The translations under genes and the position numbers were made by a program. A stretch of DNA of 33,953 nucleotides. Origin: Candidatus Iainarchaeum sp. Its GTDB lineage: Archaea; Iainarchaeota; Iainarchaeia; Iainarchaeales; GW2011-AR10. The stretch lies in assembly GCA_016198165.1 (NCBI GenBank), contig JACQJF010000049.1, positions 1 through 33,953 on the forward strand. Direction: 5' to 3'. Under the pieces are notes generated by a model, which saw nothing but the letters and a program-made list of their open reading frames with translations, searched no databases and was not told the DNA's origin. Position 1 is the stretch's first letter. Every line of letters begins with the position of its first letter. Positions 46 to 31,427 of this stretch are shown here, one piece after another.

Positions 46-2892
46 TCAGGCTTTTTTTACTTCCACGTAAAAGCTCTTGTCAAGGAGTTTTTCCAGTTTT
101 CCGCCCGCGTTTTTTGTCACGGTCAGGGTTTCTTCCTCAAGCCTTTTGCGGAATTTTTCCAGGAACTCTCTGTCATCACAATCAATGAGGAGGATTGCCT
201 GTTCGCGGGGGTTTAACCCGGCTTGTTTTCTTTTCTCCTGCACCTGCCTGCGCAGTTCCGTGAATTCCCACTCGCCGCGCAGGTCATCGTCGACCGTTTT
301 TTCAATGAACAATGCGAATGCGGCTGTTTCTTTTTCCGCGAAATCGCCTGTGGGTTTTTCCGTTGACTCATTTATTTCCATGACATTGCACATGCCTGCA
401 AGCACTTTGAGGGTTTTTGACAATTCGTGCCCGGTTTTTGTTTTCACGACGAGTTTTTTGAGGGGCCAGCGCCTTCGGAATCCAAGCTCTTCGCGCAGGC
501 TGAATGCCGCCTGTGCGGCTTCTTTTGCAAGGCCCATTTCCTTTTCAAGCGCTTCATCAATTTCATGCTCTATTGGACAACAGAGTTCGAGCAGGTGCAC
601 CGATTCGGCCGCTCCTTTGTCTTTCACCTGCCGGTAATAGTGCTCTGCAAAGTGTGGCATGAGGGGTGCAGTCAGGCGCAGAAGCGAGTGGATTGCCTCT
701 TTCAGTGCAAATGCGGCTCCGCTTGCGCTGCTCGTGTCTTCCCTGTCGCGGATAATCTGTATGTATGTCCTGCTCAGGTCTTCGAGTATGAATTCCTGGA
801 GCAAAGTGGTTGTTTTCGAGAAAGTGTAGTTGTTGTAGTTTTCCAGGCATTCTTTTTCAAGTTTGCCAAGCCTGCTTAAAAGCCACTTGTCTTCAGTTAA
901 AAGCCCCGGTTTTTTGGAAGCCTTGTCCGCGTAGTATGTCATGTAATAGTTGAGCGTGTTGTGGAACGTGTTTGCAATGCGCGCAATTTCCTTGAAAGCG
1001 TTCCAGTCAAACGAGAAATCCTCGCCCCTGGATTCTGACGCGAGAAAGTAGCGCAGGAAGTCGCGGTTGTGTTTTGCAATCGCTTCATGGGGCGTGATTA
1101 TGTTTCCCTGGCTTTTGCTCATCTTGTTGCGGTTCATGTCAAGCACCAGGCCGTGCATGGCGATTGCCTTGAATGGCTTTTTGTCAAAGGAAATCACGCT
1201 CGTGATGAGTTGTGAGTTCCACCATCCCCTTATCTGGTCCTTGCCCTCGATGTTGAGGTCAGCGGGCCAGAATTTTTCAAACTCCCCCTTTTTCTGCGGG
1301 TATCCAAGCGAGCTCCAAGAGGCCGGGCCGGAGTCAAACCACACGTCCAAAACTTCCGGCACGCGCTTCATTTCGCCGCCGCACCTGCACTTGATTGTCA
1401 CTTTGTCTATCCATGGCTTGTGCAGTTCAAAATCGTTTTTTGTCCCGGAGAGTTTTTTGAGTTCCTGTTTTGAGGAAACGACCTTTTTCTCCCCGCATGC
1501 ACCGCAGACCCATATTGGGAGGGGCGTGCCCCAGTAGCGCTGCCTTGAAACCGGCCAGTCGGATAGGCTTTCAAGCCAGTTCTCAAACCTTGACCTGCCG
1601 TAAGGTGGTGTCCAGTAGACTTCCTCGTTGAGCTCCATGAGGCGCTTCCGTATGCCAGTTATCCTGAAGAACCACTGGGGGCTTGCAAGCATTAAAAGCG
1701 GGTTTTTGCATCTCCAGCAGAAGGGGTAATCATGCGTGTACTTTTCTTCAAGCAGCACCGCGCCTTTTTCCTTTAAGTCCTTGATTATTTCCGTGTTTGC
1801 TGGCCTTGCTTTTTTTCCCTCGTATTTTCCGCCCAGTTTGTTGAATGTCCCGTTGAGTTCCACGGGCACTATGACAGGCAGGCCGTGTTTTGTTCCTTCC
1901 TCGAAGTCTTCTTTGCCGTGCCCTGGCGCGGTGTGGACAAGGCCGGTTCCTTGCGCGAGGTCCACGTATTTTTCGCTTGGAATCACCCTGTAAGCTCCCT
2001 TCAATTCCCCGACATTGATTAGGTCCTTGAGCGGGTTTGTGTATTCGAGGCCGACGAGCTGTTTTCCGCTGAACTCTTTTTTCACTTTGAACTTTGCCCT
2101 CATTTTTGCAGCCACTTTTTCAACCATGGCCTTTGCAATTATGAGTGTTTGGCCATCGTGCTCTGCTTCAACGTAGTCGAAACCCGGGTTGGCCATTACC
2201 CCCGTGTTTCCGGGGAGCGTCCATGGCGTGGTTGTCCAGATGACGAGAAACTTTCTGTTTTCTCCCCTGACTGGAAATTTTACGTACACCGAGTCGTCTG
2301 TCTGTTTTGCATACTCGATTTCGTTGAATGCAACCGCGGTTTCGCACCTCGGGCACACGTGCACGGAGTACTTGCCGAGGTAAAGGAGGCCTTTTTCGTG
2401 CGCGCGGGAAAAAGTCCACCACATTGACTCGATGTACCTGTCGTCAAGCGTGAGGTACGGGTTTTCCCAGTCCATCCACACGCCAAGGTCGTAGAACTCG
2501 CCGTTCATGATTTCGATGAATTCGGTTGCGAATTTTTTGCATTCGTTGACGAACTTTTCCACGCCGAATTCTTCTATCTGTTTCTTGTTTTTGAAACCCA
2601 GCTTTGCCTCGACCTTGTTTTCAATGGGCAGGCCGTGCGTGTCGTATCCAGGCTGGTCGCGTACTTCAAATCCCTGCATTCGCTTCATCCTCATTGCAAT
2701 GTCCTTGAGGACTTTGTTGAGGGCGGTTCCCATGTGGATGTGCCCAGAGGCGTATGGCGGGCCGTCAATTAGGTAAAAAGTTTTTTTCGCGCCTTTGTTT
2801 TTCGTGCGCGCTTTTTGCGGTACGCGGTTTTTTTCCCAGAATTGCCGCACTTCCTCTTCCGCGGCCAAAGAATAGGGTTTTAGTGTCTGCAT
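46..2892 (-). CDS. ileS: Isoleucyl-tRNA synthetase
   Basis: 948 aa; class I signatures (PPYASGHIHMGTALNKVLKD = HIGH region; NKMSKSQGN = KMSKS), WWNSQL and C-terminal IleRS-like regions. Confidence 0.96.
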   Translation of the reverse strand: MQTLKPYSLAAEEEVRQFWEKNRVPQKARTKNKGAKKTFYLIDGPPYASGHIHMGTALNKVLKDIAMRMKRMQGFEVRDQPGYDTHGLPIENKVEAKLGFKNKKQIEEFGVEKFVNECKKFATEFIEIMNGEFYDLGVWMDWENPYLTLDDRYIESMWWTFSRAHEKGLLYLGKYSVHVCPRCETAVAFNEIEYAKQTDDSVYVKFPVRGENRKFLVIWTTTPWTLPGNTGVMANPGFDYVEAEHDGQTLIIAKAMVEKVAAKMRAKFKVKKEFSGKQLVGLEYTNPLKDLINVGELKGAYRVIPSEKYVDLAQGTGLVHTAPGHGKEDFEEGTKHGLPVIVPVELNGTFNKLGGKYEGKKARPANTEIIKDLKEKGAVLLEEKYTHDYPFCWRCKNPLLMLASPQWFFRITGIRKRLMELNEEVYWTPPYGRSRFENWLESLSDWPVSRQRYWGTPLPIWVCGACGEKKVVSSKQELKKLSGTKNDFELHKPWIDKVTIKCRCGGEMKRVPEVLDVWFDSGPASWSSLGYPQKKGEFEKFWPADLNIEGKDQIRGWWNSQLITSVISFDKKPFKAIAMHGLVLDMNRNKMSKSQGNIITPHEAIAKHNRDFLRYFLASESRGEDFSFDWNAFKEIARIANTFHNTLNYYMTYYADKASKKPGLLTEDKWLLSRLGKLEKECLENYNNYTFSKTTTLLQEFILEDLSRTYIQIIRDREDTSSASGAAFALKEAIHSLLRLTAPLMPHFAEHYYRQVKDKGAAESVHLLELCCPIEHEIDEALEKEMGLAKEAAQAAFSLREELGFRRRWPLKKLVVKTKTGHELSKTLKVLAGMCNVMEINESTEKPTGDFAEKETAAFALFIEKTVDDDLRGEWEFTELRRQVQEKRKQAGLNPREQAILLIDCDDREFLEKFRKRLEEETLTVTKNAGGKLEKLLDKSFYVEVKKA

Positions 2893-3063: not shown

Positions 3064-3065
3064 AT

Positions 3066-3177
3066 GGGAATAGGAGGATTTGAACCTCCGACACGTGGCG
3101 CGCTTACGCCAATCAACAAAAAAATTTCCTGAAAGGTGTTATAAGACCACTGCTCTACCAGGCTGAGCTATACTCCC
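3066..3177 (-). tRNA. tRNA-Ile (anticodon UAU) with a 39-nt intron at 37/38
   Basis: Acceptor GGGAGTA/TATTCCC, D-arm GCTC AGCCTGGTA GAGC, anticodon stem GTGGT/GCCAC, T-arm GGAGG TTCAAAT CCTCC. Intron 3101-3139 gives a bulge-helix-bulge: central helix CTTA/TAAG, 3-nt bulges TA^A and CG^C. Confidence 0.85.
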
Positions 3178-4193: not shown

Positions 4194-5852
4194 TTACATG
4201 TCCATTCCTTCCATTCCGCCCATGCCGCCGCCCATTCCGGGTGGCATTTTTCCGCCTCCGCCTTTGCTGCTTCCTGCGATGATGTCATCTATTCTCAGGA
4301 GCATTTCCGCGACTTCGGTGGCACTCGTGATTGCCTGTGTTTTGACTGACAATGGCTCAAGCACTTTTTTGCTTTTCATGTTCTCAAGCTTTGCCGCAAA
4401 CACGTCAACCCCGATAAACTGGCCGCCTTTTGCAGAGTGCTTGGAGCGCAATGACACTAAAGTGTCAAGCGGGTCCATTCCAGCGGTTTCTGCCAGTGTG
4501 CGTGGGATTATTTCGAGTGTTTCGGCGAATGCCTCGATTGCGAGCTGTTCGCGGCCCCCGACGGTCTTTGCATAGTTGCGGAGCCTGTGTGCGACTTCGG
4601 CTTCGCAGCTTCCGCCGCCTGCAAGGACTTTTCCATCGCGCAGTGCTGCGGTTGTGGAGCCGATTGCGTCAGTGACTGCGCGTTCTGCCTCGTCTATGAC
4701 GTGCTCTGTCCCGCCCCTGATTAGGAGTGAGACTGCTTTTGGGTTCTTGCACCCTTCGATGAAAGTCATGCTGTCCCCTGCGATTTTTCTTTCGCGAACA
4801 ACCTGTGCTTTTCCGAGGTCCTGTGCTGAAAGGTCCTTTATCCTTGAGACTACGCGTGCGCCTGTTGCGCGGGCGAGTGCATCCATGTCGGATTTTTTCA
4901 CCCTGCGCACTGCAAGGACTCCTTCTTTTGCGAGGTAGTGCTGTGCAATGTCGTCGATTCCCTTCTGGCAGACAAGGACATTTGCCCCCGCTTTTTTCAC
5001 GGTTTCAACCATGTCGCGCAAAATTTTTTCCTCCTGTTCGAGGAATGCCTGCATTTGCTCCGGGTCGGAAATGCTGATTTTAGTGTCGGTCTCTGGTCCC
5101 TTGATTTCAAATGCCGCGTCGACGAGCGCGATTTTCGCGTCCTCGATTCTTTTGGGCATGCCTGAGTGGACGACTTCCTTGTCGACGATTATGCCTTTCA
5201 CGAGTTCGGAGTCTGCCATTGACCCGCCTGCTTTCTTCTCGACTTTGATGTTTTCCTTGTCGATGACTGTTTTTCCTTCCTCTTCGACCGCGACCTGCCT
5301 TACCGCGGTTACGACGAGTCTTGAAAGCTCCTGTGCGCCATCGGCATTCTTGCCGGTCATTGAAGTGAGGGCGATGTCTTCAAGGGTTTTTGAGTCCTTG
5401 AGGTTGAGTGCCTCGGAAATGTCCGCGTACTCTTCCTTTGCCCTCTTGGCTGCAAGCCTGTATCCCTTGATTATGACCGAAGGGTGGATTTCGTCGTCCA
5501 AAAGCTTTTCGGCTTTCTCCAACAGGCCGCCTGCGAATACTGCCGCAGTGGTCGTGCCGTCGCCGACTTCGCTGTCCTGGGTCTTTGCAACCTCCACCAT
5601 CATTTTTCCTGCCGGGTGGTCAATGCTCATCTCGCCAAGGATTGTCGCCCCGTCGTTTGAAATAGTGATGTCCCCAAGGTCATCGACAATCATTTTGTCC
5701 ATTCCCTTCGGGCCAAGCGTGCTCCGCACGGCGTTTGCCACTGCTTTGGCTATGAGGATGTTTATTCTCTGGGCATCCCTGCCCTTTACTCTCTTGCTTC
5801 CCTCTGTCAGGAAGATAACAGGCTGGTTATAGCCCTGTTGATTGTCAGCCAT
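4194..5852 (-). CDS. Thermosome subunit (group II chaperonin)
   Basis: 552 aa; [46 protein letters not shown]-terminal GGM-rich tail. Confidence 0.97.
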
Positions 5853-6002
5853 TGAAAAAAATCCCTCCCATTTTTTTGCTTGTTTTTCAAAAAAAAAAGC
5901 TGAAAAAAACGCTATTTTTTCGCATTGATTTTTTTTCTGCGAATTAACCTATTTTAAGCCTGAAAACCTTTAAAAAACTAATGACTTTTTTGCTGGATAT
6001 GG

Positions 6003-6068
6003 GCTGCAGGCGTCAGCCCGCACCGCGGTTTATGCGCCATCTTGCGATGGCGCGGTAATACAATCCTG
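6003..6068. repeat. Hairpin repeat, copy C
   Basis: GGGCTG..CAGCCC hairpin, then CACCGCGGTTTAT + GCGCCATC-ttgc-GATGGCGC + GGTAATAC; same layout as 11068-11108. Confidence 0.6.
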
Positions 6069-6120
6069 AAATCAAAGCGTTTTTTCTGCTTTAAATTTTC
6101 TTTGCAGGGTCATTTTTTTT

Positions 6121-6693
6121 ATGAAGGAAAGTTTTGTCGTGGATAACCGGGTTTTTTTTGTCGTTGAAAAGATTTCCAAGGGTTATACAAGCGACGTTTT
6201 TTTGGTTGAAGACAAAAACCACAAGCGTTTTGCCCTCAAGGCGGAAAAGCAAAAGTCCCCGCGCAGGGACATGGCTGGAAAAGAGGCCCTTCATCTTTTG
6301 TTTGTGAACGGTTTTGGAATCGGGCCGGCACTTGAATGCTTTGACACGGCACAGCGCGTGGTCGTGCTTGAGCTTGTGGATGGCATGACTTTTGACCGCT
6401 GGCTGTTCCAGAAAAACCCTTCGAAAAAAGTTTTGTCGGCTTTCGTGGAAGAGCTTTTGGAGCAGGGCGGGGCCCTTGACCGAATCGGTATCTCGCATGG
6501 CCAGTTGGCTGGAAAAGGACGCAACATCCTTGTGGCAAAAAACCGGCCCGTGATAATCGACTTTGAAAAAGCTTCCTCCACGAGGCGGTGCAGGAACGAA
6601 AACCAGTTGCGCGCGCTTCTCTTTGAGAACCCCGGCTCTGCGGTTGCGAAAAAGGTCAGGGAAATCCTTAATAATGGAAAAAACCATGAGTAG
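6121..6693 (+). CDS. Predicted archaeal Ser/Thr protein kinase (COG2112-like/Bud32-RIO-like fold)
   Basis: 190 aa; KISKGYTSDVFLVE, FALKAEKQ (Lys), ISHGQLAGKGRNILV (catalytic-loop equivalent), PVIIDFEKAS (metal-binding Asp). Confidence 0.75.
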   Translation: MKESFVVDNRVFFVVEKISKGYTSDVFLVEDKNHKRFALKAEKQKSPRRDMAGKEALHLLFVNGFGIGPALECFDTAQRVVVLELVDGMTFDRWLFQKNPSKKVLSAFVEELLEQGGALDRIGISHGQLAGKGRNILVAKNRPVIIDFEKASSTRRCRNENQLRALLFENPGSAVAKKVREILNNGKNHE

Positions 6694-6979
6694 ACTTTGG
6701 TGCGAGGTGAAATCCGGTTTGCCAGGAAATAGAAAACGCGTTAAGCCAAAAAGAGCAATCCCAAAACGACAAATTGCTTCAAATATTAAAAAGATAAGGT
6801 ATCAAATAATCCGCTCTGAATCGATTCTTGCTGGCTTGAGGAAAAATCGTGCCAAACTTGTTTCAGATTGGGCAGCCAGCCATCCACGATACCAAAGGCC
6901 ACGCACATCAGAACAAGCAAAGCAACAGAAGCTGGAATATACTGAACATGTGGGTCTTTTGAGGGCACTTGACATGTAA
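6674..6979 (+). CDS. Hypothetical small basic protein
   Basis: ORF from ATG 6674, overlaps the end of the kinase gene; Lys/Arg-rich, coiled-coil-like. Confidence 0.35.
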   Translation: MEKTMSRLWCEVKSGLPGNRKRVKPKRAIPKRQIASNIKKIRYQIIRSESILAGLRKNRAKLVSDWAASHPRYQRPRTSEQAKQQKLEYTEHVGLLRALDM

Positions 6980-7123
6980 ATAAATGCAAATGAAGTGGTG
7001 CTTGCATCACAGAGGACGGCGCTTAATCTGCTGGAAGAGCCTCGGGATTGATGCGGGGGATTGAGTTTTTCTTGTTTTGTGTGAAAAAAACCGTGGAATT
7101 ATTTTTTTTGCCGGTGGTGAAAA

Positions 7124-7528
7124 ATGTCTAGGGCTTTTAGGAGAAGGGTCAGGAGACAATTGGCTAAGGTGACGCCGGGTTTTGCAAGGAAACCTATTTT
7201 TAATGCGCATGTCTGGCTCTTGAGAAAAAAACAGGCAATGCGGCTTAAATCGGAAATAAGGGAGTTGAGGAAAAAGCTGGAAAGGGAAAATCTCCTCAGA
7301 GGCCAGGAACTGGCTCTGCTTAGAAGTGCAGCTGATGGGAGTAGGCGAATTTACCCTGGATATGTGCGCGGGGATTCCGGCGAGTATCTATCTCTGCGGA
7401 GGACTAAGTTTGATTTGGCTGCAGCTCAAAAAAACAGTGCTGAGTACATTGCAGAGTTGTCAGCCCAGCTTGAAGGAAAACAAGAAAGGCTTGGAGCGCT
7501 TTTAGCCAGGTTCAGAAAAGGAAAATAG
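7124..7528 (+). CDS. Hypothetical basic coiled-coil protein
   Basis: 134 aa, strong heptad-like charge pattern (LKSEIRELRKKLERENLL). Confidence 0.55.
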   Translation: MSRAFRRRVRRQLAKVTPGFARKPIFNAHVWLLRKKQAMRLKSEIRELRKKLERENLLRGQELALLRSAADGSRRIYPGYVRGDSGEYLSLRRTKFDLAAAQKNSAEYIAELSAQLEGKQERLGALLARFRKGK

Positions 7529-7541
7529 CGCGTTGGTGTTT

Positions 7542-7931
7542 TCATTTCACGAATTTTCTGTCGACTTCGTTGATTAACACGTCGCAGGCTGCCTTGATTG
7601 ACTCAAGCTGCTTGATGATTCTTTCTTTTTCCTTTTCGATGTCCTGGAGGTTCTCATAGGGTTCCACGGCATCGCGAAGCATTGCCCCATCAACATAGGT
7701 GTATGGGTGTGAATCCATTTTTTTCGCGATTCTTTCCACGATTTTTGCAAGCCAGATGTTCATCTGGTCCTTTACCTGGCCTTTTATCTGCTTGCCAGGG
7801 GTCAGGTGTTTTCTGAGCATGTTGACAATCGTTGCCCGTGGAAATGGGAGTTTTGACTCGTCTATTTCGGTTTCATCCCCCGTTTCAACTGCCGTTTGCG
7901 CAAGTTCTTCCTTTACTTCCAAAAAAAACAC
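7542..7931 (-). CDS. Putative histone-fold protein with C-terminal coiled-coil extension
   Basis: LPFPRATIVNMLRKHL...KGQVKDQMNIWLAKIVERIAKKMDSHPYTYVDGAMLRDAVEPY fits a histone-fold helix pattern, followed by about 40 aa heptad-like tail. Confidence 0.5.
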   Translation of the reverse strand: MFFLEVKEELAQTAVETGDETEIDESKLPFPRATIVNMLRKHLTPGKQIKGQVKDQMNIWLAKIVERIAKKMDSHPYTYVDGAMLRDAVEPYENLQDIEKEKERIIKQLESIKAACDVLINEVDRKFVK

Positions 7932-8113
7932 CCCTGCCTGATTTTTTTTTTAAAAACCTAAAAAAGCCTGAAAAAAGCCTTCGACTAAATAGGATTATTT
8001 TGCTCCGATAAGTTTTAAATTGGATTTAATCCGGCCTGTTTCAGGGTTTTTCGGGCCGTTTCCTTGGGAACGTTTTAATACCTTTTGATGGAATCTGTTC
8101 AATATTCATTCCA

Positions 8114-8518
8114 TTGATTTTTGGGGGGGTTATTTTTGTGGAGGCAGCAAAAAACAATCTGGTTCTTTCCTTTTCACAGTCTGAAGACATAGTAGGGGAA
8201 ATCAAGAAGTTCATGGAAACCGAAAAAGTCGATTACGTGGAATTGCTGTCCGCAAAAGGAAAAGTAATGGACTTCACGGTCCTGTGCTCCGGGCAGAATG
8301 CGGCCCTGACACAGATGTCTTTTCGGGAAGAATTCGGCGTCCGCGCGATTTCAGGGAAAATAGAGAAGGCAAACGGCAGGTTTGTGCCAAACATCTACAT
8401 TTCGCTTTCAAAGGACGGCGTGGGCTCTTTCTCGGGCCAGCTTGTGAAAGCACTTGCGACAGAAGGCCTTGAAGTGAGGCTCCGAAAAATCAACCTTAAA
8501 AAAATAATCAACGGTTAA
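8114..8518 (+). CDS. PPC/DUF296-like domain protein
   Basis: Layout GKVMDFTV...ISGKIEKANGRFVPNIYISLSKDGVGSFSGQLVKAL; likely GTG start near 8138. Confidence 0.5.
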   Translation: MIFGGVIFVEAAKNNLVLSFSQSEDIVGEIKKFMETEKVDYVELLSAKGKVMDFTVLCSGQNAALTQMSFREEFGVRAISGKIEKANGRFVPNIYISLSKDGVGSFSGQLVKALATEGLEVRLRKINLKKIING

Positions 8519-23283: not shown

Positions 23284-24716
23284 TAATCGGTCACCGTTTT
23301 TGTTTTCCGAAGCCACGCTAAATCGTCCGAGAATAGGTGGCGTATGTCGCTTATGCCAAGCTTGAACATTGCAAGGCGGTCAAGCCCCATGCCCCATGCA
23401 AGCACCGGGCCTTTGATGCCGAGGTTCTCGGTTATCTCCGGCCTGAAAATGCCTGCTCCGGCGAATTCTATCCAACCGAGTTTCGGGTGGCGCGCGCTAA
23501 GCTGGCAGCTCGGTTCCGTGAACGGGTAATAGTCGGGGATGAATTTCACGTCTGTAGCGCCTGCGATTTCCTGTGCAAAGTCTTTCAGTATGCCGAGGAG
23601 CTTTGGAAAATTCAATCCCTCGCCCACGATGAAGCCGTCAAGCTGGTTGAATTCAAGAAGGTGCGTCGCGTCCAATACATCGGGCCGAAAGCACCTGTTT
23701 ATGACAAAGAATTTTGCCGGTGGTTTCACGCCCTCGGTCATTTTGCGTGCGTCCGCGCTTGTCCCGTGCGCGTTTGGCATGAGCCTTGAGGCTATTTCTT
23801 CGCTCCACGCGTATCCCCATCCGCGTGAGAGTGTTTTTCCACCCGTTTCGTGTGCGGCTTTCACTGCGTTTACTTTTGCCTTGTCCGGCAGTTTTCCGTG
23901 GACTGGTTTTTTGAGTTTGTAAGTGTCTGTCCATGTGCGCGCAGGGTGGTTTTGGGGCTGGAACAATACGTCAAAATTGTAAAACTCCTGGGTAATAAGC
24001 CGTTCGGGCATTTCTTCAAAACCCATTTCAGAGAGCTTTCTTTTGATTGATTCCAAAAATTTTTGGTAGGGCTGTTTTTTTCCAGCAAAAATTTCCGGCA
24101 CGGGGTCAAAAATGTTGAAGTGGCGTTCCGAAACCGCGCCAAGCATTTGTTTTGCCTTTTCACCTTCAGGAGTCAGGCCTGCGCTTACCTGTGCAATTTC
24201 TTTTTGTTCCACGATGCCGCGCTTGACGAGTTCTTTTAATAGTTCTTGCTCGCTCTCTTCGAGTCCGCCGGTTCCTTTTTCGGGAATTTTTTCCACGAGT
24301 TTTTCTTCAGGCAGCGTGTCTGTCAGGAACTCCTCTCCGACGCTTGTCAGGCTGATTGCACCTCCTTCAATTGAGATGAGGTTAAGTTTTTTTAGTTTTC
24401 CAAGGCAAAAACTCAGTTCTTTTTCCCCGAGTTCTTTTTTCATTTCATCAATGGTTTTTTTTCCGTTTGAGAGAATATTCAGCATTTTCCGTTCGGCAAG
24501 CTCTCCTGCCTTGTTTGCCTGGAAAACTGTTGTTTTTTGTTCAAGCAGTTCCACGAGCCCTTTTTGGGAGAGCCATTGGAGTGCGCGCCTGACTGAGTCC
24601 ACATGCACCCCTGACTGGCGTGCAATGTCTTTGAAGGCTTTTTTTTGCAGGGTTATGGCGTTAAGCGTTCTTCGTTCAATGTCACTTAGCTGTAACACCG
24701 TTTTTTCAAGGTTCAA
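23283..24716 (-). CDS. pheS: Phenylalanyl-tRNA synthetase alpha subunit
   Basis: N-terminal winged helices, class II motifs (HPARTWTDTY, FFVINRCFRPDVLDATHLLEFNQLDGFI, GAGIFRPEI, AWGMGLDRLAM). Confidence 0.96.
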   Translation of the reverse strand: MNLEKTVLQLSDIERRTLNAITLQKKAFKDIARQSGVHVDSVRRALQWLSQKGLVELLEQKTTVFQANKAGELAERKMLNILSNGKKTIDEMKKELGEKELSFCLGKLKKLNLISIEGGAISLTSVGEEFLTDTLPEEKLVEKIPEKGTGGLEESEQELLKELVKRGIVEQKEIAQVSAGLTPEGEKAKQMLGAVSERHFNIFDPVPEIFAGKKQPYQKFLESIKRKLSEMGFEEMPERLITQEFYNFDVLFQPQNHPARTWTDTYKLKKPVHGKLPDKAKVNAVKAAHETGGKTLSRGWGYAWSEEIASRLMPNAHGTSADARKMTEGVKPPAKFFVINRCFRPDVLDATHLLEFNQLDGFIVGEGLNFPKLLGILKDFAQEIAGATDVKFIPDYYPFTEPSCQLSARHPKLGWIEFAGAGIFRPEITENLGIKGPVLAWGMGLDRLAMFKLGISDIRHLFSDDLAWLRKTKTVTD

Positions 24717-28486: not shown

Positions 28487-28738
28487 TTAAATTGATTTCT
28501 TTAGGTATTCTTTGCCTTTTTTTGTAATTGAGTAAACCCGGTAATTGTGCCTTTTTGGCGTTTTGCAGTCGACAAACCCGTGGTCTTTGAGGTCAAGCAG
28601 GACTTGGCTTATTGTTGAGCGGTGGTTGTCAAGTTTCTTTGCAAGCTCTGTTGGCGTCAGAGCGTTTGTTTCAAGTGCCTTTAGGACGTGTTTCCTGTTT
28701 TTGCTGCTTTTCAGGTAAACCAGTTCATACCAGTCCAT
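28487..28738 (-). CDS. Winged-helix DNA-binding regulator
   Basis: MDWYELVYLKSSKNRKHVLKALETNALTPTELAKKLDNHRSTISQVLLDLKDHGFVDCKTPKRHNYRVYSITKKGKEYL. Confidence 0.8.
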   Translation of the reverse strand: MDWYELVYLKSSKNRKHVLKALETNALTPTELAKKLDNHRSTISQVLLDLKDHGFVDCKTPKRHNYRVYSITKKGKEYLKKSI

Positions 28739-28877: not shown

Positions 28878-29483
28878 ATGGCTCGTGTCAGGACTGGAAT
28901 ACCTGGTTTGGATGGCCTCATCGGGGGCGGTTTTGAAAAAGGCTCCATTGTGGAGGTTGCGGGCAGTGAGGGGGCACTCAAGTCTACTTTTGGCCTCCAG
29001 TTTGCCATTGAAGGGGTTAAAAGGAATGAAAAAGTTGTTTATGTCTCCCTTGAAGAGCAAAAAGAGAGTTTTGAAAGCACTGCCAGGGTTTTTGGCTGGG
29101 AAAAAAATTTTTCAAGAATCGATTTTCGCCATATTGACGTAAAGCAGGTGATTGCAAGCCTTGGGGTTTCATACAATGCTGATGGCCCGGAACATCTTGC
29201 AAAAAAACTGCTTCAGACTTTTGATGGCGGCATTGACAGGCTTGTCCTGGATTCTGCCACCACGCTTGCGCTTTATTCTTCAAGAACTTCCGTAAAGCTG
29301 ACGGGGAGCAAAAAATGGGGTTTTGTAAAGCCAAGCTGCGGGGACATCAGGGTAATGCTTTATTACCTGTCAAGCGAACTCAGGGAGTCAGGCAGCACCG
29401 TTGTTTTTCTGGCTGAAAGCGGGAAAGGCGAGCTCTATGTTGCCGAAGAGGTGCTGAAGTATGTTTGTGACGCAAAAATCTAG
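28878..29483 (+). CDS. KaiC/RAD55-like ATPase, possibly truncated by an in-frame TAG
   Basis: RTGIPGLDGLIGGGFEKGSIVEVAGSEGALKSTFGLQFA; ORF resumes in the same frame after TAG and runs to 29624. Confidence 0.85.
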   Translation: MARVRTGIPGLDGLIGGGFEKGSIVEVAGSEGALKSTFGLQFAIEGVKRNEKVVYVSLEEQKESFESTARVFGWEKNFSRIDFRHIDVKQVIASLGVSYNADGPEHLAKKLLQTFDGGIDRLVLDSATTLALYSSRTSVKLTGSKKWGFVKPSCGDIRVMLYYLSSELRESGSTVVFLAESGKGELYVAEEVLKYVCDAKI

Positions 29484-29625
29484 CTGAAAAAAAGTTCGCT
29501 TGGAACAGAATCCCCAAGGACAATAATTATCCGCAAAATGAGGCACACAAGCCATCCGTTGGACGAAATGTCACTGCTTATTACAAAAGGCGGTCTGCAG
29601 GTCAGGGAGCTTTCGGGTAAATGAT

Positions 29626-30258
29626 ATGCTTGCGGAAAAAATACGCCAATACATTTCCTCCAGGTACCTGCGGTTTGGCGAAGAAGAAATATGGTTCGGA
29701 AAAGAACGGGTTTTGTTTTATTTTGCGCCGCATCTTGCAGAAGAATTTTCAATAAACCGCCGAATTTTCGGGTTGAAGTATTGTGCGGCGTGTTTTCTTG
29801 CCGGGCGCACTGCGGGCCATGCTTTTGTGGAAAAACACGGCGTACCTCTCAAGAAAATCCTGACTCCGGTTGTTGAACTGAGCTGCACTGTCCTTACTGC
29901 TTTTGGTTTTGGTTCTTTCCGGACACTCAAGGTCAGGGAAGAAGGCTTTATGGTTGTTGCCGGAAAATCCACTCTTGCAAAAGAAATCAAGCAGAAAATG
30001 TTTTCACAAAAACCGGTTGATTTTGCCCTCGCGGGGGTATTTGCCGGGGCACTCTCGTGTTTTTCTTCGGAAAAATTTTATGCAGTTGAAACAAAATGCT
30101 GTGCCCAAAAAAACGTGGATGAATGCGTGTGGGTTGCAGGAACGGAAAAATCCATTCTTGGCCATGTAAACGAGTTTTCCCCCGAGAACCTTATGTGGGC
30201 AAAAGAGTTTTTGGCCGAAGTAAAAACGCTTGAAAAAGAGGCAGGTGGCGCCCCGTGA
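29626..30258 (+). CDS. V4R-domain-like protein
   Basis: PVDFALAGVFAGALSCFSSEKFYAVETKCCAQKNVDECVWVAG. Confidence 0.6.
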   Translation: MLAEKIRQYISSRYLRFGEEEIWFGKERVLFYFAPHLAEEFSINRRIFGLKYCAACFLAGRTAGHAFVEKHGVPLKKILTPVVELSCTVLTAFGFGSFRTLKVREEGFMVVAGKSTLAKEIKQKMFSQKPVDFALAGVFAGALSCFSSEKFYAVETKCCAQKNVDECVWVAGTEKSILGHVNEFSPENLMWAKEFLAEVKTLEKEAGGAP

Positions 30259-31427
30259 TTTCAGGGAACCCCCGGGTTGAAAATTTGTCGGGGCAGGCTG
30301 AAAATAGCCTGTGGTCTTTGGCTTTGCGGGATTTTTGGGATTATGTGCAGAAAAATCCTTCAATGCCGCTTCGTTTCCTGGAGTCAGGCATAACTGATGT
30401 CATGAACGGCCCAAGGAGTGAGTTTAATTTGTTCCTGATTCCTGACGGAAACGCGAGGATGGCTGCAGTGAAAATACTCCAAAAGGAGCATGGGTTGCCG
30501 GTTATTGGAGAAAACATGGCTAAAACGCTCAAAAAACTTGAAAAAGGAATCAATGAAATCCTCAGGCATCCCGAAGAATATCTTGGGCTTGTTGAATATG
30601 AATATCAGAGAAGCGGTTTTGCAACATCCCTGCTTTCCAGGGAGCTTCAAAGGCACAGTTTTGGCGACCAGGTAACCTGTGTCTACAATGAAATAAACCG
30701 CCAGGACAGGGTGTACTTTGACATTTTTGAGAAAATGCTTAACGGCATAGGCCAGGCGAATGTCGACCTTCTTCTGGCAAGCAGGGTAAAATGTTTTGTC
30801 GTTGGAAGCGATGCGGAAAAATGGGCCGGGAAAATAAATAACCTGGAAGTGCTGTCAAGGCCCCCTGAAAAGTCCAAGTCAAGAGTGATAATCATAGCGG
30901 GCCTCTATTCCAATCCGAAAAAGGCGCTCAAAAAAATCGAGGATGAAGCGGAAAAAATTTTCCAGGAGTTTCCGGATGATTCAGAAAAGCGCTGCTGCGG
31001 CCTTGTAAACGAAGCTATCGGGGACATCATTGATGAGCGGCTTGAAAAATATGCAAGGGAATCAAACGTTTTCCTAAGGCCCACGCATGTAAGGATTTCA
31101 GGAATGTATTCATCAGCCTACAATAACGCGGCGATGGGTTTTTTGTTTTCGCCTTTCAGCAGTTTTAACCCTGCAAGCCTTGCAATGCAGCTTTTGGGCG
31201 CGTGGAAAACAGATTTTGACCGCCTGAGTAAAAGGCTTGACATTTATTCCCCTGAAAGCTATGCGCTTTGGATGAATCATTTCGGCGACAACAGCATGGC
31301 CGCTCCAAAAGACTTTAACGCTGTCCTGCCATGCAAAAGAAACCCGCCGTTTCTTTCAAAAATAAGCAAGTGGAGTGAAAAAGACCTGGAAAAAGAAATA
31401 AAACCGTTTTACAGCGGGAAAATCTGA
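30255..31427 (+). CDS. Hypothetical 390-aa protein
   Basis: GTG start overlapping V4R-like stop (GTGA); long ORF consistent with coding; no family recognised. Confidence 0.75.
   Translation: MISGNPRVENLSGQAENSLWSLALRDFWDYVQKNPSMPLRFLESGITDVMNGPRSEFNLFLIPDGNARMAAVKILQKEHGLPVIGENMAKTLKKLEKGINEILRHPEEYLGLVEYEYQRSGFATSLLSRELQRHSFGDQVTCVYNEINRQDRVYFDIFEKMLNGIGQANVDLLLASRVKCFVVGSDAEKWAGKINNLEVLSRPPEKSKSRVIIIAGLYSNPKKALKKIEDEAEKIFQEFPDDSEKRCCGLVNEAIGDIIDERLEKYARESNVFLRPTHVRISGMYSSAYNNAAMGFLFSPFSSFNPASLAMQLLGAWKTDFDRLSKRLDIYSPESYALWMNHFGDNSMAAPKDFNAVLPCKRNPPFLSKISKWSEKDLEKEIKPFYSGKI

Follow-up and report, generated by a model that had tools for sequence, protein, structure and literature searches.

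A KaiC-like ATPase gene of Candidatus Iainarchaeum sp. is interrupted by a TAG codon, and the same frame continues beyond it with sequence resembling the missing C-terminus. This raises the question of whether the TAG is translated, ends a deliberate short product, marks a damaged gene or is an error in the sequence. We examined the locus within its window, the whole stretch of 33,953 nucleotides from contig JACQJF010000049.1. From an ATG at 28878, the 5' part of the gene (28878-29483, plus strand) runs for 201 codons to the TAG at position 202 (29481-29483). It is followed in frame by 46 open codons and a TGA (29484-29624, plus strand; TGA at 29622-29624), giving 248 positions in total. This TGA ends 1 base before the ATG of a V4R-domain-like gene (29626-30258, plus strand). 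On re-reading, the start, both stops and the neighbouring ATG fell exactly where the original prediction had placed them. A third gene (30255-31427, plus strand) completes an apparent operon and encodes a 390-aa protein without a Pfam match. A divergent gene for an HTH regulator (HVO_A0261_N / ArsR-like) occupies 28487-28738 on the minus strand, with a predicted start.

The 46 codons after the TAG

A 46-codon open frame has a chance of about 9% given the base composition, so its length alone is unremarkable. The encoded residues were more specific: by themselves they matched positions 187-228 of the 231 in the PF06745 (KaiC) model with an E value of 1.1e-5. Including them raised the PF06745 score from 92.6 bits for the 201-aa product to 133.2 bits for the 248-position read-through product. 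As the Pfam gathering score is 26.6 bits, the read-through product belongs with the KaiC-like ATPases; it fell below every NCBIfam KaiC equivalog cut-off. KaiC-like homologues were present in 52 of the 53 related genomes searched. In many related genomes the alignments ran on to query residues 230-245, many of them reaching residue 240 or beyond. The TAG would have been an ordinary terminus if homologues ended there, but none of those examined did, and similarity to the tail was found instead. Across 30 aligned sequences, K220, M221, R222 and H226, all encoded after the TAG, were invariant. By this comparison the tail is genuine KaiC C-terminal protein sequence and not a chance frame, as had been proposed, and is best annotated together with the disrupted KaiC-like gene to which it belongs.

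The remaining hallmarks of the family lie upstream of the TAG. These include the catalytic Glu pair (SLEEQ) and the Walker B motif (RLVLDS), with D125 invariant in the same 30-sequence alignment. The C-terminal strands bearing K-x-R are present too, yet they are encoded 3' of the TAG. The Walker A motif reads GSEGALKS (window 28962-28985, residues 29-36) and departs from the GxxxxGK[ST] pattern that is typical of KaiC-like ATPases but is no requirement of the PF06745 model. Its second Gly is replaced by Leu here and by Tyr in the closest orthologue (GSAGTYKS), while both genes keep the K-S pair along with Walker B and the Glu pair. Because both have lost this Gly, the ATPase activity of the family is itself putative.

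The structure predicted for the 248-position product (mean pLDDT 82, pTM 0.84) matched archaeal KaiC-like proteins and the CI domain of KaiC, with a Foldseek E value of 1.4e-19 to 2zts. Together with the PF06745 score and the alignment, this bears out the proposed KaiC/RAD55-type identity. The nearest known counterparts are archaeal single-domain KaiC-like ATPases of the RecA superfamily, for example PH0186 (2zts) and PH0284 (2dr3) of Pyrococcus horikoshii. Like them, the read-through product scores well over the PF06745 cut-off, has the same predicted fold and carries KMR and H in its C-terminal strands. Unlike them, its gene has an in-frame TAG at codon 202 and its Walker A motif has lost the second Gly. 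It also shares its domain with cyanobacterial KaiC CI, but it is single-domain, without CII, and no clock role is implied.

In the predicted model, codon 202 falls within a strand spanning residues 199-205, while strands 214-221, 230-236 and 239-243 come from the tail. Translation stopping at 201 aa would therefore break off within a core beta strand. Such a protein would be missing its three final strands together with the K-x-R motif, which in KaiC extends into the ATP site of the neighbouring subunit. In KaiC CI, K224 and R226 of the neighbouring (n+1) subunit contact and stabilise the ATP phosphates (PMC2777353). A phmmer alignment to KaiC chain 1u9i ended at query residue 243 against chain residue 247, a shift of 4. 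Provided that the tail contains no gaps, this shift places K220 and R222 on K224 and R226, to which they appear equivalent. A cut inside a core strand combined with loss of the trans-acting Lys and Arg would leave the 201-aa product non-functional, and we infer that it is most likely misfolded or catalytically dead.

A different fate for the short product is that it works as a truncated regulator or decoy subunit. Retention of both Walker motifs and of the Glu pair fits this idea, as does the occurrence of inactivated KaiC-like domains in archaeal signalling (PMC5847659). However, a functional short form would have to tolerate the predicted break halfway through a core strand, and no examined homologue shares its terminus. 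We consider it unlikely.

Codon 202 in an intact orthologue

Peptide patterns applied to genome contigs found no close relative of the KaiC-like protein, so the search was routed through the downstream V4R gene, which led to two relatives. The closest orthologue lies in a Candidatus Micrarchaeota MAG (L151; JAGWHK010000005.1, 4590-5336). It is uninterrupted and encodes 248 aa, as many as the window gene would if read through, with 51% identity between the two. Identity is spread evenly, at 51% in the body and 50% in the tail, and the tail of the window gene carries no other lesion. Alignment at the TAG position, the check that the original prediction had called for, gave Glu (GAG) in this orthologue, with identical flanks (KI-x-LKKSSLGT). 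The residue at this position varies among paralogues. The second relative (SBBR01000079.1, contig C86 of genome G035) covers only about the last 22 codons of the KaiC tail, and the TAG position lies outside it. The KaiC on contig C14 of the same genome is a different paralogue. A search of viral contigs returned nothing.

An intact orthologue thus stands one base away from the stop (GAG against TAG), as expected of a nonsense-mutated gene. The proposed nonsense mutation survives, but since the orthologue has GAG, the simplest ancestral codon is GAG and not the suggested CAG or TGG. The ancestral KaiC-like gene was very probably whole. A KaiC-like homologue in a related genome (G045, contig C78, 34786-35502) contains a single in-frame TAA, so the window is not the only place where a lone nonsense codon occurs in this family.

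We conclude that the TAG is probably a recent nonsense mutation in an otherwise intact KaiC-like gene, leaving a dead product. In this account a single base would have changed at codon 202, most simply G to T (GAG to TAG). The gene hit would encode a single-domain archaeal KaiC-like ATPase, would carry no other damage and would lie alongside a gene for a putative sensor of V4R type. The reading frame, the homology of the tail, the intact orthologue with its Glu and the failure to detect recoding machinery or a second unexplained TAG-interrupted gene are shown directly; the reality of the base, the recency of the change and the product's loss of function are inferences.

The tail's lack of decay weighs against a mutation, since it fits a base-call error equally well. 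The TAG may instead be a consensus error or a minority-strain base in the metagenome assembly, with the real gene intact and probably reading GAG. Everything downstream is intact and conserved, one base separates the TAG from the orthologue's codon, and the assembly is fragmented into 66 contigs, all of which accord with such an error. On the other side, the site bears no direct sign of error, and neither an indel nor any other mark of bad sequence was seen near the TAG. This explanation is a serious but clearly less probable one. The absence of poor-sequence signs nearby is the sole ground on which we favour mutation over assembly error.

TAG in the host genome

We surveyed stop usage over 960,434 bases (~960 kb) of the 67% complete host assembly, taken in stretches, with three small contigs read as N. 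The 782 predicted genes ended in TGA (428), TAA (278) or TAG (76). In-frame runs after TAG averaged 23.7 codons, against 36.7 and 49.0 after the other stops. Coding-like continuations followed four of the TAG-ended genes. Two of these ran into a downstream gene with its own Met start, one was a long but poorly scoring frame, and the last was that of the KaiC-like gene. By extension scores, none of the 76 was a second TAG-ended gene with an unexplained coding continuation. TAG is an ordinary stop in this genome, and on its usage (76 of 782) and the extension scores we reject genome-wide reassignment. When, as a control, scoring was confined to the codons preceding the first potential start, the KaiC-like gene ranked 8th of 200. 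The codon-bias signal alone is accordingly weak, and homology carries the argument.

The pyrrolysine genes mtmB, mtbB and mttB likewise have a TAG in frame with conserved coding sequence behind it. Unlike these, the window gene encodes no methyltransferase, an ordinary Glu codon stands in its orthologue, other TAGs of the host act as stops and pyl genes were not found in the genome. In the host's own genome (67% complete), PylS gave no match over cut-off and PylB no match; across the 83 genomes searched from the phylum, PylS never exceeded the cut-off. Pyrrolysine decoding is hence not supported. No CUA anticodon occurred among the tRNAs detected, in an assembly that is 67% complete and with tRNA-Pyl being unusual in shape. 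The only PylS-like match, a weak one in the window (23334-23747), proved to be phenylalanine-tRNA ligase alpha.

The default ARAGORN run missed a tRNA-Ile (anticodon TAT) with a 39-nt intron at window positions 3065-3177 (minus strand). It adjoins ileS (46-2892, minus strand), and introns also occur in several other tRNAs of the host.

These results bear on whether the TAG is read through to give a 248-aa protein, be it with the help of a suppressor tRNA, of a pyrrolysine tRNA or of programmed leakiness. The fully conserved tail, with its invariant KMR and H, and the equal conservation of body and tail are what read-through would maintain. An unassembled suppressor tRNA is possible in a genome 67% complete, which also counts against a nonsense mutation. 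Against read-through stand the negative pyl searches, the lack of a CUA anticodon among the tRNAs detected and the ordinary terminator role of TAG in 76 genes, none besides this one showing an unexplained continuation. Moreover, the region downstream of the TAG showed no stable RNA structure (z 0.68), and the orthologue has Glu at a paralogue-variable position rather than at a special catalytic site. Archaeal read-through was listed only for selenocysteine and pyrrolysine in a 2021 review (PMC8211752). We judge read-through improbable, slightly more so than a functional short form.

A genuine TAG with partial read-through, owing to a suppressor tRNA missing from the assembly or to a leaky context, would yield short ATPase-dead and long ATPase-competent subunits from one gene. 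If true, partial read-through would tune the V4R-coupled signalling pair. No homologue examined stops at this point, no stable RNA structure follows it and the short form would lack an invariant catalytic motif, so that two-isoform expression has no positive support. This is the least probable of the readings.

Among the four options first raised for this codon, nonsense mutation and sequencing error therefore stand, whereas recoding and two-isoform expression are not supported. With a recent nonsense mutation preferred, the TAG looks like an ordinary lesion or base error, and not a new reading of the genetic code. When a metagenome-assembled archaeal gene contains an amber codon in frame, this does not by itself point to pyrrolysine or recoding; such a claim needs pyl genes, a tRNA that decodes UAG or a further example.

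The KaiC-V4R pair

In three archaeal genomes, a V4R-domain-like gene lies directly 3' of the KaiC-like gene. Besides the copy in the window, these are a single gene on the G035 contig (L066, 81-731), which follows the KaiC tail and is 56% identical, and two copies in the Micrarchaeota MAG (5341-5991 and 6001-6654). Close relatives of the V4R gene are sparse in the phylum. Conservation of the pair across the three genomes suggests a putative sensor-ATPase pair.

Genes of isoprenoid lipid metabolism were observed nearby. On the G035 contig, the next gene after V4R encodes a cis-prenyltransferase (719-1390; PF01255, E 1.1e-32), and a geranylgeranyl reductase-like gene lies near the pair in the Micrarchaeota MAG (6849-8297). 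The 390-aa window protein carries a 20-aa cis-prenyltransferase-like motif, LFLIPDGNARMAA, shared with the cis-prenyltransferase whose gene takes the same place in G035. A link between the KaiC-V4R pair and isoprenoid lipid genes is possible. For archaeal signalling, the pair is a more useful lead than the nonsense codon.
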